Positions 2,857-42,005 of a stretch of 64,000 bases of DNA are shown one piece after another. Each line of letters opens with the position of its first letter. Within the stretch, counting starts at the first letter, position 1. A program made the translations under genes and the position numbers. Source of the stretch: Anaerotruncus colihominis (GTDB lineage Bacteria; Bacillota; Clostridia; Oscillospirales; Ruminococcaceae); contig CP102255.1 in assembly GCA_025146135.1 (NCBI GenBank), forward strand, positions 1,178,001 to 1,242,000. The letters run 5' to 3'. A model generated the notes under the pieces. It made no database searches. It had not been told where the DNA came from and saw nothing but the letters and a program-made list of their open reading frames with translations.

Positions 2857-2933
2857 CCGGATATGGCGCAGTTTGGTAGCGCGCTACCTTGGGGTGGTAG
2901 AGGCCGTGGGTTCAAGTCCCGCTATTCGGACCA
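2857..2933 (+). tRNA. tRNA-Pro (anticodon GGG)
   Basis: A full cloverleaf can be folded: acceptor CCGGATA with TATTCGG, D stem GCGC/GCGC, anticodon stem CTACC/GGTAG with loop TTGGGGT (anticodon GGG, 2891-2893), T arm GTGGG-TTCAAGT-CCCGC, discriminator A and encoded CCA (2931-2933). A terminator follows. Confidence 0.95.
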
Positions 2934-2951
2934 AAAAGAATGCCCACTTTG

Positions 2952-2989
2952 GATACCATCGGCAGAAATGCCGATGGTATCGGGCTTTT
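2952..2989 (+). terminator. Terminator of tRNA-Pro
   Basis: A 13-bp perfect stem (2952-2964 with 2969-2981) closes on a GAAA tetraloop and is followed by GGGCTTTTT. Confidence 0.9.
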
Positions 2990-3095
2990 TAGAGGTTTTT
3001 CCCCCTCAAATTTCACAGGTGAAACAAAAGATCCAAACGGGGTTTTCACAGAAGCTGGCTGGATTCGAACCCCAAAAAATTCTTTAGAAATCTAC

Positions 3096-3237
3096 AGCGC
3101 CCTTTTTAAAATGGGATTTTCAAAAAGGGTGTTATTTTCATATCCAGAAAAAATCAGAGTGCCAAAGGCGTCAATCTCTCAGCCAACAGGCTGAAGGGGT
3201 GGCGCCTTTTTTCATATTCCGAAAAAGGGCGCTAAAT
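3096..3237. repeat. Dispersed hairpin repeat, copy 1
   Basis: Bases 3096-3150 (AGCGCCCTTTTT arm, loop ATGGGAT, TTTTCAAAAAGGG arm, then TATTTTCATATCC) match a perfect hairpin at 15493-15548. A second partial copy of the tail (TTTTCATATTCCGAAAAA, then GGGCGCTAAA) lies at about 3211-3235. The unit borders dead transposase sequence in both places. Otherwise nothing is coded between the tRNA terminator and 3289. Confidence 0.7.
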
Positions 3238-3288
3238 TGGCACTGTATAGTAAACATAAAAAAATAGAACGCGAAATTAGAAAAAACT

Positions 3289-3804
3289 CTACGCAACGAG
3301 CAAAAGCTCCCGTTTGCGTTTTTTGGATAGATTGATGCCAGCACACTGCGCCGGAGTAAGGTTGTTCAGGGTGGAATGGAGACGGACAAAGTTGTAGAAG
3401 AAGATGAACATGGAAATGAGGTTGTTGGTAATGTCCGCGTGGAAGATCTCCACGCGGATGTACTGAACCCGGTGCAGCGCCTTGACAGGCATTTGGCAGG
3501 CGAAGTAACGGTCGCTTACAATGGTGCGAAGCGAGCCCGAATCTTTCACAACTTCCAGTATGGTGAAAGCCTGAGGGCTGTCCCTGAGGTGGTCGATATG
3601 GAAGCTGGGGAGAAAACGCGTCTTGCTGCCCCAAATGAGCCAGAGACAGTATTTCCTGCCTTGTATCTTAACGACAGTTTCATCGGTGTGCCACTCGTCG
3701 GAGTTGAAATTGAGCGCCGGAAGCAGCTGTATGGCAATGTTTTGGAATATTGGGGCGAAACAGGTACACCAGTTGCTGGTGGAAGCCGAAGCCCCGGTCG
3801 GCAA
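3289..3804 (-). pseudogene. DDE transposase remnant, internally deleted
   Basis: The C-terminal half of an integrase-fold transposase is readable: the DEWHTDETVVKI segment with the first Asp, HLRDSPQAF, TIVSDRYFAC with the second Asp, then FYNFVRLHSTLN and LTPAQCAGIN at the end. The region holding the catalytic Glu is missing: the protein runs from ADITNNLI directly to FIFFYNFVR, consistent with a deletion between two NNLI-coding repeats that full-length relatives are expected to have. The N-terminus is also lost into IS110-like sequence. It cannot transpose. Confidence 0.75.
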
Positions 3805-3829
3805 TCAGAAAGGAGACAGGCAAGCGAGG

Positions 3830-4200
3830 AGTAAAGCATTCCGAATTTCTCCATAGCAAATATCAGACGAACCAACTTTTTAGCAGTATGGGAAACTGCG
3901 ACATGGTAATGCTTGCCTTCCGTCCGATTCTTGGCGAGGTAAGCGGCAAAAACCGATACCCGGCGCCAGACATACTTGGTTGTATTGTAAAGAGCGCAGC
4001 GCAGGTGTCTGGGGCCAAGCTTTTCCATATATGTGCAGCAATTTTTAAGCTGCCCGGACGAATATGCAGAAGGAGACATCCCGGCGCAGGCCAATTGCTT
4101 GTCAGGAGAATTAAAGTGTGAGAAAGCGCCAACCTCAGCAAAAATCATAGCGGCCATGCGCAGCCCCATGCCTGGGATAGTTGCAGAGGCCTTTAAAAAA
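3830..4200 (-). pseudogene. IS110-family transposase C-terminal fragment
   Basis: Minus-strand translation from about 4195 gives TIPGMGLRMAAMIFAEVG, then a CAGMSPSAYSSGQ segment, RHLRCALYNTTKYV and a terminal EGKHYHVAVSHTAKKLVR, the conserved order of the Transposase_20 domain of IS110 elements. The N-terminal RuvC-like catalytic part is absent; weak residues of it may persist to about 4310. The frame then runs into the neighbouring DDE remnant, so the two dead elements are fused end to end. Confidence 0.75.
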
Positions 4201-4401
4201 TTCTCCTTATACAGAGTGTGACCTGAAAGCTACTTGATTTGCAAGATTGGCATATTTCGGCTTTTTCAATGCCAGCTCGGATAGTTTCTTTCTCACTATC
4301 AGTTTTTATAAAACACAGGTTAAGACACGGCTGGCTGCCGCATCTTAACCCGTAAGTATGAAAATATTTTGAAACAGGAGCAGGAAATGTAATGAGCGGA
4401 T

Positions 4402-5334
4402 TTACAGGCCGCAGAGCTTGAGAAGATCTTCCCAGTTGTGGTCCACTTCCTTCTGGACATCTTCGATCATCCACTCGTTGCCGGGCTTGAACATGTGGGC
4501 GAAACGGCCCTGCATCTTCAGGTATTCCTCCACCGGCAGCTTGTTCTTGGGCTTGTAGCTGAGGATGTACTTGCCCTCGACCACCTCATACAGCGGCCAT
4601 ACGCAGGTTTCCACCGCCATCCTGGTGATCTCCATCAGCTTTTCACTGGGATAGCGCCAGCCGCGGGGGCAGGGAGCCATCACGTTCAGGAAGGCCGCGC
4701 CAGGGGTGTAGATGGCCTTATAGGCTTTTTCGCTGATATCCTTGAAATTGCCGGTGAACGTGGTCTGGGCCGCGTAGGGGATTCCGTGGGCCGCCATGAT
4801 CTTGGTCAGGTTTTTCTTCTGCTGCATCTTGCCGGGGATCACACTTCCCTGAGGGGTAGTGGTGGTGTCGGCAAAGCGGGGCGTTGAGCTGGACCGCTGG
4901 ATGCCGGTGTTCATATACGCCTCGTTGTCGTAGCACACATACACCATGTCGTGGCCCCGTTCCATGGCGCCGGACAGACTTTGAAACCCGATATCGTATG
5001 TGCCGCCGTCGCCGCTGAAGGCGATGAACTTCCACGTTTCGTCCAGCTTACCGCGCTTTTTCATAGCGCGGTAAGCCGTCTCCACACCGGAGATGGTGGC
5101 CGCCGCGTTCTCAAAGGCGTTGTGGATGAAGCTGTCCTTCCACGCTGTGTAGGGATACATGAAGGTGGAGACTTCCAGGCAGCTGGTGGCGGAGCAGACG
5201 ACCGCCTTGTCCTCAGGCTCCAGCGCCCGCAGCACCGTGCGCACCGCGATGGGAGAACCGCAGCCTGCGCACATTCTGTGGCCGCCGGACAGGCGCTCCT
5301 CTTTCATCAGATTTTCTTTCAGACTATATGCCAT
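4402..5334 (-). CDS. porB: 2-oxoacid:ferredoxin oxidoreductase beta subunit, 310 aa
   Basis: Binds thiamine diphosphate and an iron-sulfur cluster in the oxidative decarboxylation of a 2-oxoacid to acyl-CoA with ferredoxin reduction. The N-terminal CAGCGSP motif supplies cluster cysteines. The ThDP site is the GDGGTYDIGFQSLSGAMERG stretch around residue 120, followed by CYDNEAYMNTGIQRS. The APCPRGW motif near residue 210 is also typical. It is the last gene of a four-gene unit, 15 bp after porA. Pyruvate is the default substrate; the neighbourhood allows another oxoacid. Confidence 0.93.
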   Translation of the reverse strand: MAYSLKENLMKEERLSGGHRMCAGCGSPIAVRTVLRALEPEDKAVVCSATSCLEVSTFMYPYTAWKDSFIHNAFENAAATISGVETAYRAMKKRGKLDETWKFIAFSGDGGTYDIGFQSLSGAMERGHDMVYVCYDNEAYMNTGIQRSSSTPRFADTTTTPQGSVIPGKMQQKKNLTKIMAAHGIPYAAQTTFTGNFKDISEKAYKAIYTPGAAFLNVMAPCPRGWRYPSEKLMEITRMAVETCVWPLYEVVEGKYILSYKPKNKLPVEEYLKMQGRFAHMFKPGNEWMIEDVQKEVDHNWEDLLKLCGL

Positions 5335-5349
5335 GACAGTTTTCCCTCC

Positions 5350-6528
5350 TTATTCCCGAACGTCCAGATAGCGGTAGGTATCTCCGGTATCGCCGGAACC
5401 GGAGATCTTCTCCAGTTCCGCGAACACGTGTTGGATACTCTCTACCCGCACGTCGCGGCCGCCCAGACCGTAGATATAATTGATGCCCTTGGGCGCGCTG
5501 ACGCCGGCGGCATAGAGGGCGGCGGCGGTTTCTGCGAAAATGGGGCCGCAGTGGGCGTTGAAGCTGTCATCCTTGTCCATGGCGGCGAAAGCCTTCACAT
5601 CCTTCAGCGCCTCGGCGATCGCCTCGGCGGGGAACGGACGGAAAGAGCGGATTTTGATGAGGCCCGCCTTTTTGCCCTGAGCGCGCAGTTCCAAAATGGC
5701 CTGCTTGGCGGTACCCGCGGAGGAGCCGATGATGATAATGGCCATCTCGGCGTCATCCATCATGTACTTCTCGATCAGGCCGTACTGCCGGCCAGTCATG
5801 GCGGCAAATTCGGCGCCGACTCTCTTGATGACCTCCTTGGCGTCCATCATCGCCTGGGCCTGCTGACGCTTGGCCTCCATGTAATAAACGGGGGTGGCGT
5901 AAGCGCCCACGGCCATTGGCTCGTCCTTGTTGAGCAGGCAGTGCTGCGGCTTGTACTCGCCCACAAACTCCCGGACCTTCTCTGTCTCCACCAGCTCGAT
6001 GTTCTCGATGGCATGGGAGGTGATGAAGCCGTCCTGACAGATCATGATGGGCAGGCCCACAGCTTCGCCGATGCGCATGGCCTGGAGGTAATTATCATAG
6101 ACCTCCTGGTTGGTTTCGGCAAAGAGCATCAGCCAGCCGGCGTCCCGCACACCCATGGCGTCGGAATGGTCGTTGTTGATGTTGATAGGGCCGCTCAGGG
6201 CGCGGCAGGAGACTGCCAGGGTGATGGGCAGACGGTCGGAGGCCGCCACGTACAGCATTTCGGTCATGTAGCACAGCCCGCAGGAACTGGTGGCGCTGAC
6301 GGCGCGGCAGCCGGCGGCCTGGGCGCCGATGCAGGCGGACATGGCGCTGTGCTCGCTCTCCACGGCGATAAACTCTGTGTCTACCTCCCCATTATCCACA
6401 TAGGCGGAGAAATACTGGGGGATCTCCGTAGACGGGGTGATGGGATAGGCGCCCATCACATCGGGATTAATCTGTTTCATGGCATAGGCGACGGCCTCAT
6501 TGCCGGAAAGTCTTTCTCTGATTCCCAT
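5350..6528 (-). CDS. porA: 2-oxoacid:ferredoxin oxidoreductase alpha subunit, 392 aa
   Basis: The alpha chain supplies domains I and II of the enzyme and contributes to substrate binding. Visible features are GAYPITPSTEIPQ near residue 34, EFIAVESEHSAMSACIGAQAAG, the SGPININNDHSDAM loop and a long C-terminal Rossmann-like domain. Length is normal for separate-subunit enzymes. A GGAGGGG ribosome site precedes ATG 6528. It lies 15 bp after porD and 15 bp before porB. Confidence 0.93.
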   Translation of the reverse strand: MGIRERLSGNEAVAYAMKQINPDVMGAYPITPSTEIPQYFSAYVDNGEVDTEFIAVESEHSAMSACIGAQAAGCRAVSATSSCGLCYMTEMLYVAASDRLPITLAVSCRALSGPININNDHSDAMGVRDAGWLMLFAETNQEVYDNYLQAMRIGEAVGLPIMICQDGFITSHAIENIELVETEKVREFVGEYKPQHCLLNKDEPMAVGAYATPVYYMEAKRQQAQAMMDAKEVIKRVGAEFAAMTGRQYGLIEKYMMDDAEMAIIIIGSSAGTAKQAILELRAQGKKAGLIKIRSFRPFPAEAIAEALKDVKAFAAMDKDDSFNAHCGPIFAETAAALYAAGVSAPKGINYIYGLGGRDVRVESIQHVFAELEKISGSGDTGDTYRYLDVRE

Positions 6529-6543
6529 TGTCGTTTCCCCTCC

Positions 6544-6852
6544 TTACTTTTCATCCTTGACCATGGTGATGGCCCCGAAGGGGCAGGCGTTCGCGCAGAT
6601 CCCGCAGCCTTTGCAGAAGAAATAGTCAAAATCCTCCCGCTTGCCTTCCTTGTTCACGGGGATGGACATATCCGGGCAGACCGGGGCGCACAGCAGGCAT
6701 TGCTTACACTTCGCCCAGTCAATGACAGGCTTTATGGTGCGCCAGTCGCCGGTCTCCACGACCTGGGATGTGCCGCCCTCAAAAATATTGCAGCCGGGGG
6801 TGATCTCTTTCCAAGTGACGCTGGGCGTCATATCCTTTGCCAGATGGCTCAT
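6544..6852 (-). CDS. porD: 2-oxoacid:ferredoxin oxidoreductase delta subunit (2x[4Fe-4S] ferredoxin), 102 aa
   Basis: Carries electrons from the ThDP site to external ferredoxin. Two full cluster motifs are present: CKQCLLCAPVCP and CKGCGICANACP. The N-terminal 40 residues are the usual delta-subunit extension. Its ATG overlaps the porG stop codon (ATGA at 6852-6849), indicating translational coupling. Confidence 0.93.
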   Translation of the reverse strand: MSHLAKDMTPSVTWKEITPGCNIFEGGTSQVVETGDWRTIKPVIDWAKCKQCLLCAPVCPDMSIPVNKEGKREDFDYFFCKGCGICANACPFGAITMVKDEK

Positions 6853-7427
6853 CCTGCCTGCACCTCCTCCATGGAACGCTTCAAAGCGCGCATATTCCCC
6901 TCGATGACCTGAGGTTTGGAGGTAAACTTGTGATGGAAAGAAGCCTCCATATCTTTGACAAACGCGTCAGGCTCCACCACACCGGAGACCTTGACGATGG
7001 CGGCCAGCATGGGGGTGTTGGGAAAGTTCTTCCCCAGTTCTTCCTCGCTGATCCTGCCGGCGTCGATGGTGAATACACGTCCCGCATACCCCTTGAGCAG
7101 AGGCCGCAGCTGGGCAGGGGACTTGCCGGAGTTGATAACGATGGCGCCTTCCTTCTTCAGCCCCGCAGTCACATCCACAGCGGAAATCAGGGTTTCGTCC
7201 ACCACCACCACGTAATCCGGCTCATAGATATTGGAGTGAACGGTGCTGCGTTCCGAGCTGATCCGGTTGTACGCCGTGATAGGCGCGCCCATCCGCTCGG
7301 GGCCGTACTCCGGAAAGCCCTGCACGTACTTTCCGGTGTTGAACGCCGCGTCTGCCAGCAGCAGCGACGCTGTCTTCGCGCCCTGACCGCCCCGGCCATG
7401 CCAGCGGATTTCTACGATATCTTTCAT
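6849..7427 (-). CDS. porG: 2-oxoacid:ferredoxin oxidoreductase gamma subunit, 192 aa
   Basis: Gamma chain (domain III, CoA-side). Starts MKDIVEIRWHGRGGQGAKTA, the diagnostic GRGGQG motif of the family, and continues with EYGPERMGAPITAYNR. The frame is open 77 codons further upstream, but that stretch has no homology signature; ATG 7427 has an AAAAGGAG site at good distance. First gene of porGDAB. Confidence 0.92.
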   Translation of the reverse strand: MKDIVEIRWHGRGGQGAKTASLLLADAAFNTGKYVQGFPEYGPERMGAPITAYNRISSERSTVHSNIYEPDYVVVVDETLISAVDVTAGLKKEGAIVINSGKSPAQLRPLLKGYAGRVFTIDAGRISEEELGKNFPNTPMLAAIVKVSGVVEPDAFVKDMEASFHHKFTSKPQVIEGNMRALKRSMEEVQAG

Positions 7428-7695
7428 AAATGGCGTCTCCTTTTTGAACGACTGTAATTTTGTTTGCAAAAAATTTAAAATGACAGATTTTGGACACCAA
7501 TAAGGTGTGATCCAGTCTTGACCACACCCTACTGGCGCCTGCGTGAGAGAAGGATCAACCCTGGTTATGGAGGAGCGCAAAAAAAGCATGGAAAGCGGCA
7601 AAATCTGTGATGCAGACCTCCTCGGGATCAAATCCAGGGTTGTGGTGGGGGAACACAATTACCTTTCATAAACGCACTGAGCAGCCGCAGTGCGT
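7428..7695 (-). promoter_or_regulatory. Gap between the YfcC carrier and porG
   Basis: The 268-bp gap has no convincing gene. A 9-bp stem AACGCACTG/CAGTGCGTT (7671-7696) overlaps the end of the carrier gene but has no T tract on the minus strand, so read-through into porGDAB is plausible. AT-rich sequence at 7455-7490 could hold a por promoter; I cannot define its boxes. Confidence 0.35.
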
Positions 7696-9078
7696 TCATA
7701 CGCCCGCGATGCTCGCGAAAACAAGAATCAGGCAGGAGACAACGATAAAGATCGCGGTAAAGGGCATAAACCATTTAAGCCATCTCTTGAAGGGAATATT
7801 TGTAAATGCAAGAGGAGCCAGACAGGCGGTGGGCCAGATCATGTTGCTGAAGCCGTCGCCAAATTGGAATGCCAGAACAGCACACTGGCGGCTAACGCCG
7901 ATCAGGTCCGACAAAGGGGCAATAATAGGCATAGTGGTTACGGCCTGCGCGGTACCGGAAGGAACCAGAAAGTTAAAGAAGAACTGGAAGAGGTAGATCA
8001 TCAGCAATCCAAAAATGCTGGATGTTCCGGAGAGCAGTTCTACGGCCGCGTGAAGAATGGTGTCCAGCGTGTTTCCCTGTTCCAGGATAGACAGGATTCC
8101 GCCGGCCATGCCCACCACGATACAGGGTACCAGAACCGTCTTGATACCCTCAACAAATCCCTGGGATATTTCATTGTAATTGTTGCCGTTCACCACCGCG
8201 ACAATAATCCCGCAGGCGGTGAGCCAGGCCGCAATTTGACCGCTGCTGGTCATATCAAAAACGGCGATCATGATTACCAGACCAACGAATTCCGCAACCA
8301 GGCATCCCAGCGCGGCCTTGCGGCGGGGCGTCAGTTCCACCGCGGGCGCTACCTCCGCGGCCAGATTCTCAGAGGTGTCGCAAAGATCGTATACGATGCT
8401 TTTTGACGGGTCCTTTGCAACTTTGCGGGCGTAAATATAGGTGTATCCCAGAAGCAGGGCCATACATAAAACCCAGATAAAAAGACGCAATTCAAGTCCG
8501 GAGAACAGGGGAAGCTCACTGATTTGCTGGGCAATGCCGACGTTCCATATACTCATCGGCCCACACATAAAACCGATATTATTTGCCACAGCTACCGCCA
8601 CAAATGCCACAACGATATCGTACCCCATGGCAGTGGTCATCAGGGCTACAACTGGCGTGAACGACCAGAAGCTCTGCTGAATGCCGACAAATGCGCCGCC
8701 TGCGGAAAAGAGGAAGCTGACGAGGACGATGAGGAAAAAAGACTTTTTTTTCTTTCCACGCAGAGCATTCTTGATGCCGTCCTCAATCAGGTTTGTGTGG
8801 ATTAGAATTCCAAAAGCGCCGCCCCAGCCCATAACATAGGCGATGACGGAGATATTTTTTTCAAATCCGCCGGGAATGGCGGCCAGCATGTCCATAATGC
8901 CGACAGGGGTCTGTTCAATAAGCTGAAAGGTATTGGGATCTACCAGCGTGCGGTTCAGTTCCTCGTTGAAATAACGTGTGTATGATCCCGCTGGGACAAC
9001 CCAGGTCAGAACCATGGCGATGGCCATCATGATGAATGTGAACACGATTAAGTCCGGGGCCTGAAGCTTTTTCTTCAT
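7696..9078 (-). CDS. YfcC/DcuC-family membrane carrier, 460 aa
   Basis: A multi-pass inner-membrane protein with about 12 hydrophobic segments, starting with a cytoplasmic KKKLQAPDLIVF and a long first helix. Landmarks of the family are WVVPAGSYTR near residue 25, GGAFGILIHTNLIEDGI, FSAGGAFVGIQQSFWSFTP and a C-terminal FLVPSGTAQAVTTMPIIAPLSD-type loop. Relatives carry C4-dicarboxylates, amino acids or related acids; the substrate is unknown. It probably imports the substrate handled by the neighbouring por or LarA-type enzymes. Its promoter resembles that of the larA gene. Confidence 0.85.
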   Translation of the reverse strand: MKKKLQAPDLIVFTFIMMAIAMVLTWVVPAGSYTRYFNEELNRTLVDPNTFQLIEQTPVGIMDMLAAIPGGFEKNISVIAYVMGWGGAFGILIHTNLIEDGIKNALRGKKKKSFFLIVLVSFLFSAGGAFVGIQQSFWSFTPVVALMTTAMGYDIVVAFVAVAVANNIGFMCGPMSIWNVGIAQQISELPLFSGLELRLFIWVLCMALLLGYTYIYARKVAKDPSKSIVYDLCDTSENLAAEVAPAVELTPRRKAALGCLVAEFVGLVIMIAVFDMTSSGQIAAWLTACGIIVAVVNGNNYNEISQGFVEGIKTVLVPCIVVGMAGGILSILEQGNTLDTILHAAVELLSGTSSIFGLLMIYLFQFFFNFLVPSGTAQAVTTMPIIAPLSDLIGVSRQCAVLAFQFGDGFSNMIWPTACLAPLAFTNIPFKRWLKWFMPFTAIFIVVSCLILVFASIAGV

Positions 9079-9151: not shown

Positions 9152-9182
9152 AGCCTATCATTCAATTTGAATCAAAGGTCAA
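9152..9182 (-). promoter_or_regulatory. MerR-type promoter of the YfcC carrier gene
   Basis: On the minus strand TTGACC (9177-9182) and TAGGCT (9152-9157) are 19 bp apart, the over-long spacing used by MerR activators. The sequence CTTGACC-TTTGA-N9-AATGATA matches the larA promoter in every fixed position and in the N9 spacing. Confidence 0.6.
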
Positions 9183-9332
9183 GTATGTATTTTCTCTAAA
9201 ATAAGGCATTTGATTTTGGCTATATAACCGAATGGATTGAAAAGAGAGATTTCCCAGACTGGGCACAAATAAGAACTTGACAAATCGAGCGTTTTGACGA
9301 TAATGGTAAAAAATCAGTTGGAGGGAGCCGGC

Positions 9333-9977
9333 ATGAAGACAGCGGTTTATTTTGGCGGTACGTTTGATCCGATCCATCAGGAACACATCCGGGTCTGTGA
9401 TCTTGCATACAACGAAGTGAGGCCTGATAAGCTTATGCTGGCGCCGGCTCCGGACGGCCTCTGTAAACGGGCGGCGGCATCGGCGGAGCAAAGGCTGCAA
9501 ATGTGCAGGATTGCCGCCCGGGATCGTCCCTGGCTGGAAGTTTCCGATATTGAGATCAAGCAAAATGTGCGCTATTCAGCAGACGCCCTGTTCCATTTAC
9601 TGGAACAGGGCGAATACTCCAAAATCTGGTTTTTGCTCGGAGAGGATCAGTTCAGCACCCTGCCGCAGTGGCGCGGCTGGGAACGCATTGTGGAAATCGC
9701 GGATATTCTGGCTGTTCGCCGGAATGGAGAACTGCTTTTTCCGGAAAACACAGCCCGGGCTGAACACCTGCTTCAGCAGGCTTCGGCGCGGGTCCGATGG
9801 CTTGACGAAACGCCTGCGGCGGTTTCCTCCTCCAAAATCCGCAAAGATTTGCTGGAGGGCAAGCGGCCGCAGGGATTATCCGACACAGTGTTTGCATACA
9901 TACTGGAGAGCGGATTGTATAAAGGAAGCTTGTTGGACCGGTCCGCTGCACCTGCAATACTCCGCAAAGCCCGCTGA
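9333..9977 (+). CDS. NadD-like nicotinate-nucleotide adenylyltransferase, 214 aa
   Basis: Predicted to join nicotinate mononucleotide and ATP to give nicotinate adenine dinucleotide (NaAD). The nucleotidyltransferase signature GGTFDPIHQEH is at residues 8-18 (Glu replaces the usual Gly of HxGH), EDQFSTLPQWRGWE is the family loop, and SSSKIRKDL is the C-terminal ATP motif. ATG 9333 has a GGAGGG site; an upstream in-frame ATG at 9294 has none. It is not next to the usual nadD neighbours (yqeK, rsfS) but sits upstream of a LarA homologue, whose cofactor is made from NaAD. Confidence 0.85.
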   Translation: MKTAVYFGGTFDPIHQEHIRVCDLAYNEVRPDKLMLAPAPDGLCKRAAASAEQRLQMCRIAARDRPWLEVSDIEIKQNVRYSADALFHLLEQGEYSKIWFLLGEDQFSTLPQWRGWERIVEIADILAVRRNGELLFPENTARAEHLLQQASARVRWLDETPAAVSSSKIRKDLLEGKRPQGLSDTVFAYILESGLYKGSLLDRSAAPAILRKAR

Positions 9978-10032
9978 AAAAACTCTGTACCGTGATCCAA
10001 AAAAGGAAAATAGAAAAATTTTTGAAATAATC

Positions 10033-10064
10033 CTTGACTTTTGACCTTCCTCTAATGATACATT
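10033..10064 (+). promoter_or_regulatory. MerR-type promoter of the LarA-like gene
   Basis: TTGACT (10034-10039) and TACATT (10059-10064) are 19 bp apart. The block CTTGACT-TTTGA-N9-AATGATA repeats the pattern at the YfcC promoter. The MerR gene lies downstream at 11360-12172. Confidence 0.65.
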
Positions 10065-10114
10065 CAAGCCAGAGATTCATGGTGACTGTCATTTTTAGAC
10101 GGGAGGTATATTTT

Positions 10115-11335
10115 ATGCTGATCCAACTTCCTGCGCACAGTTTATATGGCAATGAGCCGGTTGACGTGCAGTTCCCAAATGACTGGGACGTTCAGGTTTC
10201 AAGCTTTCAGGGAGAGAGCGAACCGGCTCTCACAGAGAGGGAGATTGCAGAGGCCATCCGGCATCCGAACTGTACTCCGCCTATCCGTGAGGCCGCCAAA
10301 GGCTGCAAAAACGCAGTTATCATCTTCGATGATATTACGCGCGCTACGCCGGTCGGCCCTATTGCCAAGGCAGTGATTGCAGAACTGGAGGAAGCCGGAG
10401 TTCCCAGAGAAAAGATTGAGTTCATGGCGGCGGTGGGCGGACACCGGGCGATGTGCAGGGAAGATTTTGTGCGCAAGCTCGGGGAGGATATTGTCAATGA
10501 GTTCCGCGTCTGGTCTCACAATCCTTTCTTCAACTGTGTATATCTTGGGAAAACAAGCCAACAAATTCCCATTGAGCTGAATGCGGAATGTGTATATGCA
10601 GACTTTAAGGTGGCAATCGGCGCAATCTTCCCGCATGTTTCTACCGGAGCGGGGGGCGGCGGAAAAATTATTCTTCCCGGAATAGCTTCCATGGAGACGA
10701 TCCGGCGCTGGCACCTCACAGATTCCGGCATGTGGCTGACCGACAGCGATTGCCGCAGAACCGTTACAGAAGCCGCTGATTTGCTGGGACTGAATATAAA
10801 GATCGACGTTTTGATGAACGGCCGCGGAGAAATTGCCAGGGTGTATGCGGGAGACTGTGAGAGCAATCTTCAGGATCATTATGACGAGATTCAGCGGTTT
10901 TTCTGTACGCGTCATGTACCGGATGTTGATTTGGTTCTTACAAACAACTATTTCAAGCCCACAGAGCCAAACTGCGCTCTGGTGCAGATGGGAATGCTGG
11001 AAACCATTCGGCCGGGCGGGGATATCATCCTCTCATACCACAGCCCGCAAGGGTGCGCCTGCCATTATGTTTGGGGAAAATGGGGGGATTCCGGGATCGG
11101 CGGGTGTATGTACCGCAAGCAATGGCGTATCCCGGAGAATGTAAACCGGTTTTTCGTGTTTACAAAATATCCGGATTTTGCAACGAGTTCCTCGTACCAT
11201 TTGAACGAGGACGGCAATTTCTTCGCCAGACAATGGGGAGAAATTATGGACGCGCTCGGGAAAAGCCCGCGCAGAGTTGCGGTGTATCCTTACGGGGATG
11301 CCTGCTGCTTTGAAGATAAAATGGGGACCCGGTAA
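10115..11335 (+). CDS. LarA-family (DUF2088) nickel-pincer racemase/epimerase, 406 aa
   Basis: LarA enzymes invert a 2-hydroxy acid centre by hydride transfer to a nickel-pincer nucleotide covalently attached to a lysine. Key residues are present at almost identical positions to Lactobacillus LarA: His110 in GGHRAM (catalytic base), His174 in IFPHVS (second base), Lys184 in GGGGKIILPGI (cofactor attachment) and His200 (nickel ligand). DDITRATP at 72-79 is the family's N-terminal motif. ATG 10115 has a GGGAGG site 8 nt upstream; the frame's earlier codons lack one. Other family members act on malate, 2-hydroxyglutarate and similar acids, so lactate should not be assumed. No larB, larC or larE is in the window. 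Confidence 0.88.
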   Translation: MLIQLPAHSLYGNEPVDVQFPNDWDVQVSSFQGESEPALTEREIAEAIRHPNCTPPIREAAKGCKNAVIIFDDITRATPVGPIAKAVIAELEEAGVPREKIEFMAAVGGHRAMCREDFVRKLGEDIVNEFRVWSHNPFFNCVYLGKTSQQIPIELNAECVYADFKVAIGAIFPHVSTGAGGGGKIILPGIASMETIRRWHLTDSGMWLTDSDCRRTVTEAADLLGLNIKIDVLMNGRGEIARVYAGDCESNLQDHYDEIQRFFCTRHVPDVDLVLTNNYFKPTEPNCALVQMGMLETIRPGGDIILSYHSPQGCACHYVWGKWGDSGIGGCMYRKQWRIPENVNRFFVFTKYPDFATSSSYHLNEDGNFFARQWGEIMDALGKSPRRVAVYPYGDACCFEDKMGTR

Positions 11336-11359: not shown

Positions 11360-12172
11360 TTATAGCTGAATTTGAATTTCAAAGCACGATTGAGTAAACG
11401 CCTGGACGGAGTCATCCGTGCTGTCCTCAAGCTCGCAGGCAAGTACCAGCCGGGGAACCTGATCACAGGACAGAAGGGGAAGAAGCGGAGAGATCTCGGC
11501 ATCCCTTTTCAGTATATGGCTGCGGAAGCATAAAAAATCTCCGGCCGGAACCATCTGGACATTTTCGCAGGACTCAGGGGGCGCATTCGCCAGCATCATA
11601 AAATAATGGGTGGGGCGCACCCGCCCTGATTTGAATTCGTCGCGGTCCAGCAAAAAGCCGATTTGCCGCAAAAAGTTGAGATCTGAGCAATCAGGGGCGC
11701 TCTTTCGCACCATAAGCCGATAGCCCGCGGTTCCGTAGAGCGATTCGCCGGGGCGGTATGCCTCTGCAAAAAGATAGCGTGTTTCAAAATGCGCCTTAAA
11801 CGGCACATTGAACAGCATCTGCTCGTCGGATCGCTGATAGTAGCGCTGGTATTGCTCCACTGTGTCGCGCAGCGTTGTCAACCGGCTGATCTCGCGATCC
11901 AGTTCCTCCTTTTTGCCTGAAAGCAGATTCCGAAATGTATCCATAGTCGTATCAGAGATAATGGCTTGGATTTCTTCCAGGCTGAATTCCAAATGCTGGA
12001 GGTGCCGGATTCTCTCCAGCGTAAAGAGCTGGTGATAGGCATAGAAGCGATATCCCGTCTGCTCGTTGACGCTTGCAGGCTGAAGCAGCCCAATTTTGTC
12101 GTAATAGCGCAGCGTATGGCTGGACAAGCCGAGGAGATGGGAGATTTCCCCGATAGAAAAATACTCTTTCAT
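11360..12172 (-). CDS. MerR-family transcription regulator with C-terminal effector domain, 270 aa
   Basis: The N-terminal 70 residues are a MerR winged helix: YFSIGEISHLLGLSSHTLRYYDKIGLL, then a coiled-coil dimerisation helix from about residue 75 to 120. The C-terminal ~150 residues resemble a GyrI/BltR-like effector-binding domain in length, but no ligand can be assigned. ATG 12172 has an AGAGG site; earlier in-frame codons have no site. It is divergent from the five-gene operon and lies between that operon and larA, so it is the obvious regulator of both, and its probable operators are the 19-bp-spaced promoters at 9152 and 10033. Confidence 0.85.
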   Translation of the reverse strand: MKEYFSIGEISHLLGLSSHTLRYYDKIGLLQPASVNEQTGYRFYAYHQLFTLERIRHLQHLEFSLEEIQAIISDTTMDTFRNLLSGKKEELDREISRLTTLRDTVEQYQRYYQRSDEQMLFNVPFKAHFETRYLFAEAYRPGESLYGTAGYRLMVRKSAPDCSDLNFLRQIGFLLDRDEFKSGRVRPTHYFMMLANAPPESCENVQMVPAGDFLCFRSHILKRDAEISPLLPLLSCDQVPRLVLACELEDSTDDSVQAFTQSCFEIQIQL

Positions 12173-12253: not shown

Positions 12254-12291
12254 CTATAATTATTTTTGTCTAACAAGAGAGGATGATGACG

Positions 12292-12681
12292 ATGAAACTG
12301 ATGCACACAAAACTGCCTGAGTTTATTCAAAGGCTCCAGGATGCGGCTGTAAGGCACACGCCGGAGATGAAAATGGAAATTAAGGGCATGGAAAATGTTC
12401 ACTCTGCAAAACTGCAGTCCCTGCGTACAGGCCGGATTGCAAACGCGGTTGAGGAGATTGCCTGCACGCAGGGAATAGACCATATTGAGGTTCTGGTACG
12501 TCCGCGGATGCCGGAAACCATGCACACGCTTGTGATTAAAGGCTACGATAAGGACGGCAAAGCCAAAAAGGCCATTGTGGAAACGGTTGATATGTTGGTT
12601 CCCACCGAGGAGCTGGATCTGTTCGATTGTGAAGAGGTCATCGACAGAAGACCAAAAATGACAGTATACACAAAAATTTAG
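12292..12681 (+). CDS. Unrecognised 129-aa protein, first of a five-gene operon
   Basis: I do not recognise this family. The protein is soluble, with no signal peptide or membrane segment, mixed helix and strand, a VEEIACTQGIDHIEVLVRP stretch in the middle and an acidic LDLFDCEEVIDRR near the end. Three ATG codons compete (12283, 12292, 12301); 12292 is best spaced from AGAGAGG. It is followed after 15 bp by the next gene of the operon. Role unknown. Confidence 0.65.
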   Translation: MKLMHTKLPEFIQRLQDAAVRHTPEMKMEIKGMENVHSAKLQSLRTGRIANAVEEIACTQGIDHIEVLVRPRMPETMHTLVIKGYDKDGKAKKAIVETVDMLVPTEELDLFDCEEVIDRRPKMTVYTKI

Positions 12682-12696
12682 ATGGAGGGCAAGTGA

Positions 12697-13725
12697 ATGG
12701 TTCGCCTGAAATATAGACTGCTGCCTGAACTCAGTGTGGATGGTATTTTGCCTCTGGCGGTGGCGCTGATTGACTATCAGGACATTTTGGATGCGGGAAT
12801 TGATATGCCGGCGGCGTGCCAGGCGGTGGCAAACTGCATAGACGGTCCGGTGGCCATCAATATCATTGATCTGGATGCCGTGACAACCACCAGCGACGGC
12901 ATCATGATTCCCAGTGCAATCCGGTCCATGGCGGCCGCCGACCGCGGAAAAATTCATCCGGAGTTTGGATATATCCCTATGGCGGAGATCCCGCATACGG
13001 ATGAGATTTTTGCCCGGGAGCCGCACCTGCGGCAGTGGGACATCAACTATCCGGGCAGAAGGCTCTTCCGGGGGCCGGATGTGGCCGACAAGGCGGTTCC
13101 CGTCCATAATGTTGTCATTACGGGGCGCGCCTGCAATAACAACTCCGGCACGGAAATGATGCATCTTGTTACGATGGGTGAGATCCTCATGCCCTATGTT
13201 GGGCAGCATGTGATCATGACCGGGGAGGGGCGGCTGCTTGCGGGAGAGTCGGGCGAGCACATTTCTGTCGGCATTGGAATGACTGTGGCTGAAAAATTCG
13301 GCCGGGTGTTTTCCACATACAGGTACCGTGCCGGCGATACGGCTCATGGTTCGGGCGAACAGGCAAAGACGCTCAAGCGGGATATTCCGTGCATTGTGGC
13401 GGATAAGCGCACACATGCAGAATTTGTAATCCGTGCTTTGAAAGCCGGCATGGTGCCTGGCCGGGACATTGGATGTTCTCCGGTCAACCTGTCCATTGCA
13501 AGGGCGCTGCGCCTGCCGGTGGATCTGGATAATATCACTGCCCGGGCCTGGGCTGAATTACAAAGCGTGGACATTACCCGCCAATGGCTGGAGATGCCTG
13601 TGCAAAAACTCACGGAAGAAGATGTTTTGGAGAATGCGGATGAAATTCTTCCGGGGGTCGTCAATCCTCGGACGTATGACGTGAACGACGTTGTTTTCAC
13701 ATGCTTTGCGGAGGTTGGCAGATGA
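12697..13725 (+). CDS. Unrecognised 342-aa protein, probable enzyme of the five-gene operon
   Basis: No family recognised. It has several conserved-looking polar clusters that could be a metal or substrate site: HPEFGYIPMAEIPHTDE (about residue 86), CNNNSGTEMMH, GDTAHGSGEQ and HAEFVIRALKAG. No signal peptide or membrane helix is seen. A GGAGGG site precedes ATG 12697. Its stop overlaps the start of the next gene (ATGA at 13722). It is the largest member and the most likely catalytic one; that is inference from size and composition. Confidence 0.7.
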   Translation: MVRLKYRLLPELSVDGILPLAVALIDYQDILDAGIDMPAACQAVANCIDGPVAINIIDLDAVTTTSDGIMIPSAIRSMAAADRGKIHPEFGYIPMAEIPHTDEIFAREPHLRQWDINYPGRRLFRGPDVADKAVPVHNVVITGRACNNNSGTEMMHLVTMGEILMPYVGQHVIMTGEGRLLAGESGEHISVGIGMTVAEKFGRVFSTYRYRAGDTAHGSGEQAKTLKRDIPCIVADKRTHAEFVIRALKAGMVPGRDIGCSPVNLSIARALRLPVDLDNITARAWAELQSVDITRQWLEMPVQKLTEEDVLENADEILPGVVNPRTYDVNDVVFTCFAEVGR

Positions 13726-14084
13726 TTTCTCAGGAATTTATCATTGCGGCCGCGGATAAAAGTATTTTGAAAATATCCGGGATTCATGTCCGCGGCCTTA
13801 ATACACAGGATCTGGAACGCCGCCTGTCGGAGCGGCTGCACACGCTTGTGCGCGTGATCGGCGTTACCGGAGAACAGATTGAGATGGATGTATATGGGAT
13901 TGATCCCGCGCAGATACGCAAGGATGAGAAAGCTGTGATTCAAGCGATCTCCCTTGTGGAGGGGATCAGCGCCGAAGACCTCTGTCAGATTTCTGTCAGT
14001 GAGAAAATCATAGATGTCAATATTGACGACGTGCCAGACAAACCCTATCACGGCTGCGCACGGGAAAGATGGATTCGGGCTTGA
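13722..14084 (+). CDS. Unrecognised 120-aa protein of the five-gene operon
   Basis: Family not recognised. Starts MISQEFIIAAADKSI with its ATG overlapping the upstream stop and ends on a TGA that overlaps the next ATG, so it is tightly coupled on both sides. A predicted strand-rich N-terminal half (ILKISGIHVRGLN) and an acidic C-terminal half (IIDVNIDDVPDK) can be seen; no cysteine cluster or membrane helix. Perhaps a small subunit of the 342-aa partner. Confidence 0.6.
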   Translation: MISQEFIIAAADKSILKISGIHVRGLNTQDLERRLSERLHTLVRVIGVTGEQIEMDVYGIDPAQIRKDEKAVIQAISLVEGISAEDLCQISVSEKIIDVNIDDVPDKPYHGCARERWIRA

Positions 14085-14608
14085 TGAATCGTATTTGGAT
14101 TATTCCGACGGGCGATGAAATCCGAAACGGGGTCGTTCGGGATCTGGACAGTCCGATGGTTATGTCGGAAATGCTCCGGATTTGGCCGATGGCAGAGATT
14201 GTACGCACTGCTCCGGTGTACGATGAGATGCAGGAGATCCTGAATATGCTTTTGTCTGCGCGCGAGGATGGAGCTGATCTGACAGTTTTAATCGGCGGCA
14301 GCGGCGGCGGGCACCGCTTCAGCCCCACGTTGGGGAAGGATTTCAGCCACTCGGCGATGGATGTTTTTCTGGAGCAGGGAGCTTCCAGAGAGATTTATGG
14401 GAAAAACGGACACTTGTGGTGCCGCCTTGTGTGCGGAAGAAAAGGGAAGATGCTTGTGATCAATCTGCCTGGCCCATATACGGAGGCAAAGGCTGCGATT
14501 CAAGCGTTTTCAGCCGCCGTATGTGAGACGGATGATGTGGCGGAGATTAACCGGGTGATGGCAGAGGCCGTATTTTCCCAATATCCGGCGGGAAGTGCTG
14601 AATTGTGA
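14084..14608 (+). CDS. MoCF-fold (MogA/MoaB/MoeA-like) domain protein, 174 aa
   Basis: Starts with IIPTGDEIRNG, the opening strand-turn of molybdopterin-binding (MoCF_biosynth) domains, and has GGSGGGHRFSPTLGKDF at the central glycine loop and VINLPGPYTEAK near the end, the same order as in MogA, MoaB and MoeA. These domains bind or adenylylate pterin-type nucleotides. In this operon the ligand could instead be another dinucleotide-type cofactor. ATG 14084 overlaps the upstream stop; a weaker in-frame ATG is at 14069. Confidence 0.7.
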   Translation: MNRIWIIPTGDEIRNGVVRDLDSPMVMSEMLRIWPMAEIVRTAPVYDEMQEILNMLLSAREDGADLTVLIGGSGGGHRFSPTLGKDFSHSAMDVFLEQGASREIYGKNGHLWCRLVCGRKGKMLVINLPGPYTEAKAAIQAFSAAVCETDDVAEINRVMAEAVFSQYPAGSAEL

Positions 14609-15183
14609 TGAAAATGGACTGTTTTGCAGCAAAAGTGTGCCTGAGAGACCAGACAAAGATTTTGATTGGCGGATTATGCATATCAGGAGTGGTTCCGGAG
14701 CTTCTGCGCCGGTGCAGAAAGCTGGAGGATGGTACTTTGCCAGTGAATACGGTTGTGGGGATTGACCGCGCCATGGCGCAGATGCTGGATACGTTGCAGA
14801 TGGAAGGGGTTTTCGCCGCAGGAGCGGCGGCTTCATCGCCGGAGGCGTCCGCACGATTTGCAAAAGCCGGATGGAGGACAGGCGGTGTAATCGGGATTCC
14901 CGGAACGCCGCCGGAGTCTGCGGATGATCAGATGGAAAGGACAAAAGATGGGTTGTATCTATTTTCCAGAGCCGGCGGGCCGGGCTTTGCCGCTGCCGTG
15001 TCCGAGAAGCAGGCAATTTATCTGTCAGAAATTTCCTTGACTGTGCCGCCTCACGAATTTTGCAGGGAAATTCAAATCCTTGCCGCAGATGGATATCTAG
15101 CGGTATTTGACGGAATTGGATATCAGGCAAAGTGTATTTTGGTCGTGGGAGCAGGGCAGCAGCGCTTTTGGCTGGAGTCGTAA
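14608..15183 (+). CDS. Unrecognised 191-aa protein, last gene of the five-gene operon
   Basis: No family recognised. Glycine-rich: ILIGGLCISGVVPELLRRC at the N-terminus, VVGIDRAMAQ, GGVIGIPGTPPESADD and ILVVGAGQQRFWLES at the end suggest an alpha/beta nucleotide-type fold. Its ATG overlaps the preceding stop (TGATG), so it is translationally coupled to the MoCF-fold gene. No clear terminator follows. Confidence 0.62.
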   Translation: MKMDCFAAKVCLRDQTKILIGGLCISGVVPELLRRCRKLEDGTLPVNTVVGIDRAMAQMLDTLQMEGVFAAGAAASSPEASARFAKAGWRTGGVIGIPGTPPESADDQMERTKDGLYLFSRAGGPGFAAAVSEKQAIYLSEISLTVPPHEFCREIQILAADGYLAVFDGIGYQAKCILVVGAGQQRFWLES

Positions 15184-16853: not shown

Positions 16854-17473
16854 ATGCCCCGCCTCATTTTCAATTGTCCATACATTAAGGGCAGCGCGCA
16901 AAACGCGACACGGCGAGAGAACTATGTTCGGTACATCTCCACCAGAGGGGGCATCGAACTGATCCGCCCGGATAATGCGGACAGCCCCGTAACGTCAAGA
17001 CAAAAGGAACTGCTCTCAAACCTGCTGCGGGATTTCCCAGACAGCAGAGGGATGTTCGAGTATGAGGACTACCGTGCGGCTCCCACCAGGGGCCATGCCT
17101 CGGAGCTGATCTGCCGGATCATCGAGGAGCATCTGCACCAGATGTTTGGCGGGAAAAGTATCTGGATTACATCGCCAACCGTACCCGCGCCGAGAAGCTG
17201 GGGCGCATGCCCTGTTTACCGCAGGTGCAGATTCACCGGCGCTGTCCCAGGTGGTGGAGGAGGTGTTCAGACACACCGGAAATCTGTGGCTGCCCACCCT
17301 CTCCCTGCGGCGTGAGGATGCCGCCCGGCTCGTCTATGAAAATGCCGAACTTTCGCTGGTACGTCGTTTTTCATAACGAGAGCCACCATCCCCATGTGCA
17401 TATGGTCTGCTATAGCGCAAAGCCTATCGTCATCAGGGAGGCGGTGAGGCTGGAGGAGCTGTCTGCCGTTTAA
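16854..17473 (+). pseudogene. MobP-type relaxase, frameshifted and truncated
   Basis: Starts MPRLIFNCPYIKGSAQNA, continues NYVRYISTRGGIELI and LLRDFPDSRGMFEYEDY, then shifts frame near 17145 to LHRQ..., ALSQVVEEVFRHTGNLWLP and LSLRREDAARL, and again near 17340 to RWYVVFHNESHHPHVHMVCY. The last piece is the HxxxHPHVH metal motif that ligates the relaxase metal ion. At least two frameshifts and loss of the C-terminal half after residue ~200 make it dead. Confidence 0.7.
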
Positions 17474-18408
17474 GGCATGTTTTGACAGCTTCGACCATCA
17501 TGTTATGGTGAACTTCCTGCGGGAACGGATTGAGGACGAAAATTTCCTCGCTCTTATCTGGAAATTCCTCCGGGCCGGATATATGGAACAGTGGCAATAC
17601 CACAGAACTTATTCCGGCACACCCCAGGGAAGCGGCGTAAGCCCTATTCTTGCTATCATCTATCTGGACAAGCTGGATTACTTTATGGCGCAGTACAAAA
17701 ACTGCTTCGATATAGGCTCATCGAAAAATCGAAAGGCAGACAGCGGCTACACCAGATCAAGAGGACAATATCACAAGTTGAAAAAGTCGTTCGCACCCAA
17801 GTGGCAAACAGCGACGCCGGAAGAAAAAGCAGAAATGGACTGCCGGATTCGCAAAACAAAAAACGAGATGCTGTATGTTCCCAAAGAAAAGTGGATGAGA
17901 AAGCTGCTGGAATACCATGCTTTCAAAATCAAGCTGGATGAAAACGGGAAAGAAACATGGAAAACGATACATCAAGGCAAACTCATCAATCATCCTGATA
18001 TAGAAATCATAAGCAAGTTCAACGTGGAAATCAGAGACCTGTACCACTACTGTCAGTTGGCGCACAACGTGTCTGTACTTGGCAAGTTCGCGCATATTAT
18101 GGAGTACAGCATGTACAAAACCTTTGCCTGCAAGTACCGCGCAACCGTGAGCAAAATAATCGATTAATATTCACACAACGGAATATTCTCCGTTCCTTAT
18201 CAAACGAAAAAGAGCCTTAAATGGTGTGAGTTTTATCATTGACGATTTCAAGCGGATTAAGGAAGTGTGTCTGGCTGCCGACACATTGCCGGAATATGGG
18301 CGGAAATATGGCAACCCCAATGGCAATGACGCCCGCATCAAACGGAGCGTCTGCGAATTGTGTGGACAGTCGATCAAGGACATCCGCATGTACCATGTTG
18401 GACTATAG
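17470..18408 (+). pseudogene. Group II intron reverse transcriptase/maturase, internally deleted
   Basis: Reads CFDSFDHHVMVNFLRERI, then the RT motif YSGTPQGSGVSPILAIIYLD, then a maturase X-domain (FAHIMEYSMYKTFACKYR) ending 18167, and a zinc/HNH-like tail CELCGQSIKDIRMYHV (18226-18408) in another frame. The catalytic YADD region expected between residues ~120 and ~250 is missing: the chain jumps from TKNEM to LYVPKEKWMRK. It abuts the truncated relaxase, as if the intron had inserted there before decay. Intron RNA domains were not identified. Confidence 0.75.
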
Positions 18409-36094: not shown

Positions 36095-36629
36095 AAGATT
36101 CTCCTCCAGTTAAAGATTTGATGATGAGTTTGTCTGTCCCATTTTAACATAACTTTATTAATATGAAAAGAATATGCCTTTTAAAAGATAGTCCTTTTTG
36201 CGGAGATGCGGTACAGGCATATTTCTAAATTTAGCAAAGATTCTTTTTGATGATTGTAAAATTTCCCTTGACGGAAATATTCAAATCAGATAAAATGGAA
36301 AAAAAGAATAATGAGAATCTCGAGCAAAATAGCCTAAAAAGAGGAAGTTTCTTCATGGCCTTTTGCCTGGACCCACGGATGATCGGTTTATCACAGCGGT
36401 GGTCCACGGGGTTGCCGTAGAAATGCGGCCGCCTTCACATTTTGAAAAGAGATCGACGAAGCGTTAAAGAGACGGCTTTTTAGTTGTGCGCAGTTATGCC
36501 TGGCGGCAGGCAGCCACACCGGAAGGCTGTCTTATACCGTCTGTTTTTGTGAAGGCTGCCACAGTTTGGTGTGGCGGCCTTTTATTGTTATAAAGCCGTT
36601 TAATATTGTATAAGGAGGAGGCGTCCGCC
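36095..36629 (+). promoter_or_regulatory. Leader of the moeA-like operon with alternative hairpins
   Basis: No gene is seen in 36095-36490; one frame at 36360-36450 has coding character without start. At 36554-36579 lies a terminator stem GGCTGCCACA/TGTGGCGGCC followed by TTTTA. The upstream stretch 36509-36520 (GGCAGCCACACC) can pair with 36568-36579 (GGTGTGGCGGCC) in 11 of 12 positions and so would disrupt the terminator. This is the logic of a riboswitch or attenuator. Given the MoeA gene downstream, a molybdenum/tungsten-cofactor signal is a candidate, but I could not match the known Moco motif. Confidence 0.5.
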
Positions 36630-41528: not shown

Positions 41529-42005
41529 AGAAAATCCCCCTTTCTTTCGCAAACATATAATATAGTCTATGAATAGCAGCAAGTCCACTATTCAATAAAA
41601 CAAAGGCTTTAATCGGACGGTTATTAGCATAACCTCATGGGAATTTCACCCCGGCATGGTTCTCATGCCGCCCTACCCATTGCCTGCGACGCTCTTAACG
41701 CTCGGACTGTGGCTGTAAGGAAGTATCATTGTATATTCTGCGTGTCGTCGCCCGCAAGCCGCTACACTTGCTTTCCGGCGCGGTGTTGGTCGCTCGGCTG
41801 TCCGGGCGGGGATAACCTCACCCGGATAGCGTCATGGCGCACCCGCCGTATGGCTCGGCGCAAAAGGAACGTATCCGATTTGCCCTATGCTGCGCCGCCG
41901 TTATCTTGCGCCGCTTTCTTTTTCAAGGTTCAAAATGGCTGTGCTACCCGCGTCAACAGCGGAACGGAAAAGGGGGTGAGAGAAAGCGTCCCGCCGCCGT
42001 TGCGG
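41529..42005. other. Non-coding GC-rich stretch of the ICE
   Basis: Nearly 480 bp without a plausible gene on either strand; frames there lack ribosome sites. A short inverted repeat CGGCATG-gttct-CATGCCG lies near 41651-41670. It may hold regulatory or excision sequences. I see no other structure. Confidence 0.5.

Follow-up and report, generated by a model that had tools for sequence, protein, structure and literature searches.

The window analysed here is a 64,000-nucleotide stretch (positions 1,178,001-1,242,000) of the 3.56-Mb single-contig genome of Anaerotruncus colihominis. It carries the genome's second NadD-family gene (nadD2) beside a LarA-superfamily gene (larA), together with the following neighbours (window coordinates).

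7696-9078, minus strand: DcuC/YfcC-family transporter gene (yfcC), 79% identical in Oscillibacter sp. (L036)
9152-9182, minus strand: 31-bp element upstream of the transporter gene, the same as that of larA, leave-one-out score 20.0
9277-9304, plus strand: sigma-70-like TTGACA-16-GATAAT upstream of nadD2, a weak match (shuffled sequences average 3.3 such matches)
9333-9977, plus strand: nadD2, ATG at 9333, stop codon ending at 9977, 214 aa
10034-10064, plus strand: 31-bp element preceding larA, spacer of 19 bp, leave-one-out score 27.2
10115-11335, plus strand: larA, of a subgroup without the K298 segment, ATG at 10115, stop codon ending at 11335, 406 aa
11360-12172, minus strand: regulator gene of the MerR family, starting with the ATG at 12172 (its frame continues to 12253)
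12283-12681, plus strand: o1, no Pfam family
12697-13725, plus strand: o2, no Pfam family
13701-14084, plus strand: o3, no accepted Pfam family; homologue adjoins an extra NadD in two genomes of the genus (G006 and G010)
14069-14608, plus strand: o4, MoCF_biosynth (MogA/CinA-like) domain; homologue adjoins the extra NadD in G006 and G010
14605-15183, plus strand: o5, no Pfam family; weak homologues adjoin the extra NadD in G006 and G010

The nadD2-larA pair and its genome

nadD2 and larA are on the same strand and 137 bp apart, which bears out the earlier note's report of a NadD homologue directly upstream of a LarA-like gene. NadD2 scores 129.7 bits against TIGR00482 (cut-off 112.45), and its AlphaFold model (mean pLDDT 81.4) best matches solved NadD structures. 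The window copy thus has both the above-cut-off score and the fold by which we assigned NadD membership. The other NadD gene of the genome, at C1:1355358, holds the YhbY-NadD-YqeK-RsfS row, so the window copy does stand outside the usual context, as had been proposed. The earlier note had named a sole housekeeping copy as an argument against its proposal; the second NadD in the same genome rules out that the window gene is a single-copy housekeeping gene.

The Lar_N domain (PF09861) is found in the window LarA with E=1.8e-47 and 161.7 bits, against a curated cut-off of 23.3. His110, His174, Lys184, and His200, on which the LarA assignment had been based, proved identical in all 19 LarA-type rows that we aligned, and D73 and R76 are also invariant. 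One paper gives D72, H108, H174, and K298 as the catalytic residues of LarA and R75, K184, and H200 as its cofactor residues (PMC7583248). The window LarA contains equivalents of all three residues binding the nickel-pincer nucleotide (NPN), and of the catalytic D72, H108, and H174. Thirteen of the 19 rows have the YQxxK segment with the catalytic K298, and the other six (the window, L035, L036, L151, L152, and L153) are without it. These six have a common lysine slightly upstream, in NYFKPxE, LKPAE, or NANAKAxE (K281 in the window). The best score of the window LarA against the NCBIfam LarA-type families is 163 bits, where the cut-offs are at least 460, and it stays below the racemase equivalog cut-off of 500. 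Since the K298 segment is missing, the assignment does not imply that lactate, malate, or 2-hydroxyglutarate is racemised. Judged from its sequence, the window LarA is a member of a divergent subgroup, and the name 'lactate racemase' is unwarranted. This subgroup is rare. Of 396 genomes in the window's family, 4 have a match at E<=1e-40, one of them being the window genome; among 391 genomes of the class, the window's own is the single match at E<=1e-60; and a scan of genome contigs gave two loci. An AlphaFold model of the window LarA (mean pLDDT 41.2, three sequences) was set aside.

At L151:8287-10721, a K298-less LarA, 41-42% identical, directly follows a gene resembling by eye a UxaA-type dehydratase, hinting at a sugar-acid substrate for that protein. 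At L152:6799-12661, another K298-less LarA lies between a frame that by eye is dihydroxyacid-dehydratase-like and a gene 30% identical to the window porA. An annotated larA on the 504-kb Pusillibacter faecalis plasmid pMM59_01 (L225) lies amid carbamoyltransferase, carbamate kinase, and amidohydrolase genes.

The window genome has three Lar_N matches, namely the window larA, a LarAH10-like gene (481.6 bits, cut-off 540), and a group-22 isomerase gene (498.1 bits, cut-off 400). Its larE, larB, and larC form one row at C1:1844080-1846900, about 655 kb from nadD2 and larA, and do not make up an NPN biosynthesis cluster adjoining the pair. The LarB of this row is 96% identical to that of a genome of the same genus (G003, locus L098), which indicates that the row is the window lineage's own. 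The housekeeping NadD of G003, 95.5% identical to that of the window genome, is its only NadD, and the window LarA has no match in G003 at E<=0.001.

The 31-bp element is common to larA of the window, L035, and L036 and to yfcC of the window and L036. Its leave-one-out scores are 20.0-34.4, compared with at most 12.2 in five shuffled windows, and its 19-bp spacer is the spacing of MerR-activated promoters. The MerR gene adjoins larA in the window, L036, and L035, in the last as a partial gene where the contig ends. The element is absent from nadD2, so nadD2 and larA are probably separate units; read-through from nadD2 into larA is possible in the window. No riboswitch was found upstream of nadD2 or larEBC, and the five gathering-level Rfam matches in the seven sources searched lie elsewhere.

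The o1, o2, o3, and o5 products fit no acceptable Pfam or NCBIfam family. Homologues of the o1-o5 operon (12283-15183) lie beside NPN enzymes in L036, L163, and L165, and on the L035 contig (L224). Next to the transporter gene, on the minus strand at 4402-7658, are 2-oxoacid:ferredoxin oxidoreductase genes, whose alpha subunit scores 459.6 bits to PorA, under the cut-off of 550. Elsewhere in the window are a molybdenum/tungsten riboswitch (36306-36468, Rfam RF01055, 60.3 bits), a pemK RNA (41635-41732, minus strand, RF02913, 62.9 bits), and frames at 16854-18167 that by eye resemble a fragmented group II intron reverse transcriptase.

Extra NadD genes near LarA-superfamily genes

The closest counterpart of the pair is in Dysosmobacter sp. 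(L035), whose LarA is 86% identical to that of the window. There, larE (2166-2918), larB (2908-3669), larC (3673-4908), nadD2 (5012-5617), and larA (6001-7221) follow one another in one direction on one contig, and thus the NPN biosynthesis genes adjoin the nadD2-larA pair. The Lar genes exceed their NCBIfam cut-offs. Upstream of the row are two Opp/Nik-type permease genes, which are below every NCBIfam cut-off, and further upstream genes for an ATPase and a solute-binding protein. The gap between nadD2 and larA is 383 bp and contains a hairpin of 16 pairs as well as the promoter element of larA itself. The o1-o4 genes are about 12 kb beyond the lar genes on the same contig (L224), with o5 weak, and a large frame at L180:13253-16774 of this contig resembles by eye a pyruvate oxidoreductase. 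Besides nadD2, the Dysosmobacter genome contains a housekeeping NadD, accompanied by YhbY and YqeK.

Oscillibacter sp. (L036) has a LarA 83% identical to that of the window, at a locus composed of YfcC, larA, MerR, and o1-o5. This locus contains no NadD; elsewhere the genome has a housekeeping NadD and a weak match (L160). LarC was not found in the L036 assembly, the completeness of which is unstated.

Our NadD counts cover 61 relatives plus L035 and L036. A second NadD occurs in three of the 61, which are the window genome, G006, and G010. The latter two belong to the window's genus, and in them the extra NadD is the last gene of a row, after group-22 isomerase, o3, o4, and o5. The G006 isomerase scores 473 bits against the NCBIfam group-22 cut-off of 400, although Pfam assigns it to DUF362 rather than Lar_N, and the G010 isomerase is a fragment at a contig end. 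The o4 and o3 products of G006 are 51% and 52% identical to those of the window. All four extra NadDs (window, L035, G006, and G010) therefore lie within 2 kb of a LarA-superfamily gene; the pairings in G006 and G010 may be one event. A gene placed at random would land no more than 6 kb from one of the four Lar blocks of the window genome in 1.5% of placements, and no more than 500 bp away in 0.3%. The conserved adjacency that the earlier note had asked about is thus partly borne out, since L035, G006, and G010 also have extra NadD copies beside LarA-superfamily genes, in layouts other than that of the window.

The linkage is narrow in range. Within the window's family, 78 of 297 genomes have LarC, and none of 77 LarC regions, taken from 76 of the 77 non-window genomes, had a NadD nearby. 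Seven of these regions are shorter than 9 kb, and the survey left out a match in G316 and second fragments in G076, G133, G137, G246, and G275. Across the phylum, LarC was present in 225 of 398 genomes, and among the matches listed we examined 40 genomes, one per family code, with no NadD near LarC in the 40 regions. The same was true for 25 other LarA loci (L010-L034, with flanks of about 1.5 kb where the contig allows), 12 of which were re-examined with longer flanks (L167-L178), and for the 19.9-kb region around the window genome's own group-22 gene. These counts (0/77, 0/40, and 0/25) indicate that the NadD link is not general to NPN synthesis, which usually proceeds without it. We conclude that the association of NadD paralogues with nickel-pincer enzymes is real and lineage-specific. 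Neither the LarA alignment nor NadD2 had a relative among viral contigs. Among plasmids, LarA matches occurred in 13 records (all below 60% identity, none covering 80% of the query, the best at 31.3%) and NadD matches, likewise all below 60% identity, in 41 and 46 records; o2 had no match.

Descent and conserved residues of NadD2

In a first NadD tree of 37 rows, the window and L035 copies form a clade with support of 100/98. The four extra copies are not one group in this tree; the window/L035 and G006/G010 pairs fall within an unresolved set of nine. L160, whose NadD score is only 46 bits and whose branch is very long, was removed from the second tree, where the four extra copies group with support of 92/82 and in 92% of bootstrap trees. 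A single origin of the four, seen in one of the two trees, is suggestive and not decisive. The housekeeping NadDs of L035 and L036 are nearest to a genome from another family of the window's order, so the nadD-larA pairing probably crosses families.

The two NadD2 proteins of the window and L035 are 45.7% identical (dN 0.54, dS 1.88), and the housekeeping NadDs of the same two genomes are 40.9% identical (dN 0.59, dS 1.64). By this comparison, nadD2 is constrained like a working, ordinary nadD. Between the same genomes, larB is 64%, larE 55.5%, larC 55%, and larA 86% identical. Recent transfer as the cause of the high larA identity was rejected because its synonymous sites are saturated; on these sequence comparisons, larA is highly conserved, not newly transferred.

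We defined 31 conserved NadD columns, each kept in at least 90% of 32 housekeeping NadDs, with L160 left out. The window copy departs at eight of them, L035 and G010 at four each, and G006 at seven, three of which are at the cut end of its sequence, compared with four in the most divergent of the 32 housekeeping rows. The window changes include HxGH to HQEH, PPHK to GLCK, and YTxDT to YSADA. HxGH is thus broken in the window (Gly to Glu) and kept in L035, G006, and G010, and L035 has both HxGH and YTxDT intact. The Met after the Asp of GxD is found in all 32 housekeeping NadDs and in none of the four extra copies. Both Thr residues of YTxDT are altered in three of the four; the Thr of this motif probably contacts the nicotinate carboxylate.

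Possible roles of NadD2 and known systems

We propose that nadD2 is probably a lineage-specific NadD paralogue tied to NPN metabolism in some Clostridia, which would supply nicotinate adenine dinucleotide (NaAD). NadD2, if active, would adenylate nicotinate mononucleotide to NaAD, and this NaAD would pass to LarB, which carboxylates and cleaves it. The paralogue would in this way offset the drain on NAD synthesis while NPN-dependent isomerases are made, and in the window the isomerase served would be the LarA-type protein encoded just downstream. PMC11796402 describes LarB as acting on NaAD and proposes that raised nicotinate-nucleotide adenylyltransferase boosts cofactor synthesis. We found no report of a NadD within a lar cluster in the open literature searched. 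The earlier note's suggestion of a dedicated NaAD supply is partly supported and remains the best reading. Its strong form is opposed by the distant larEBC row, the MerR-type promoter element of larA itself, the L036 larA without an extra NadD, the eight departures of NadD2, and the missing K298 segment. Also counted against an NaAD supply are the first tree, where the four copies do not group, the 383-bp gap of L035 with its hairpin and separate promoter, and the DUF362 assignment of the G006 isomerase.

It is possible, though unlikely, that the NadD2 clade is a repurposed adenylyltransferase acting on another substrate of the o1-o5 pathway, such as a different nucleotide or some cofactor that the MogA/CinA-like o4 handles, and that the link to NPN runs through that pathway and not through NaAD. 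In the window, G006, and G010, o3 and o4 homologues accompany the extra NadD, and the L035 contig carries them as well; the loss of the Met after GxD in all four copies and the YTxDT changes in three could reflect a changed substrate. However, the L035 copy retains HxGH and YTxDT and adjoins larC, its o1-o4 lying about 12 kb past the lar genes, and L036 has o1-o5 without an extra NadD. A bolder form, which we regard as very unlikely, is that the NadD2 clade no longer acts on nicotinate mononucleotide and AMP-caps a nickel-pincer pyridinium mononucleotide (P2CMN, P2TMN, or NPN), making or protecting, together with o4, an adenylated pincer cofactor for K298-less LarA-type enzymes.

That nadD2 is an ordinary duplicate merely adding to NAD synthesis, with neighbours explained by chance or shared regulation, seems quite unlikely to us. 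The absence of NadD near all 117 LarC regions, the lack of larA's promoter element at nadD2, and a family score like that of an ordinary NadD agree with such a duplicate, but LarA-superfamily linkage in four genomes and three layouts does not, given the expectation per copy of 0.3% (500 bp) to 1.5% (6 kb), even as G006 and G010 may count once. We consider it most improbable that the window copy is decaying, its activity lost and its pairing a relic of an L035-like layout. The broken HxGH, the lost His of PPHK, the altered Thr residues of YTxDT, the eight changed columns against at most four in 32 housekeeping rows, and the remoteness of larEBC would fit decay; against it stand the 214-codon frame, which is intact, and the dN/dS, which across the entire window-L035 split resembles that of housekeeping nadD.

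NaAD is the branch point between NAD synthesis and the nickel-pincer cofactor. If NadD2 does supply NaAD, a NadD paralogue at this branch would offer evidence from nature that the cofactor can be limited by its supply of NaAD; such a bottleneck has already been raised for heterologous production (PMC11796402). nadD2 would then be a candidate gene for co-expression when LarA-type enzymes are loaded. The locus also points to a K298-less LarA subgroup and to an uncharacterised five-gene operon accompanying nickel-pincer enzymes.

Compared with housekeeping NadD (TIGR00482, YhbY-NadD-YqeK-RsfS), NadD2 is alike in its above-cut-off score and fold, and differs in forming a separate clade together with the L035 copy, in its neighbours, and in its changed motifs. 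With larABCDE of Lactiplantibacillus plantarum and the LarA superfamily (PF09861/COG3875), the window shares Lar_N and the six residues, and its genome also has larE-larB-larC; unlike that system, its LarA is without YQxxK/K298 and a NadD copy adjoins. The characterised racemases (LarA, LarAH5, LarAH6, and LarAH10) are set apart from the window LarA by K298 and by the NCBIfam equivalog scores. NPN isomerase group 22 (NF052515) belongs to a different branch of the superfamily from the window LarA. The NPN enzyme adjoining the extra NadD is of this group in both G006 and G010, the G010 one being a fragment, and the window genome has a member as well.
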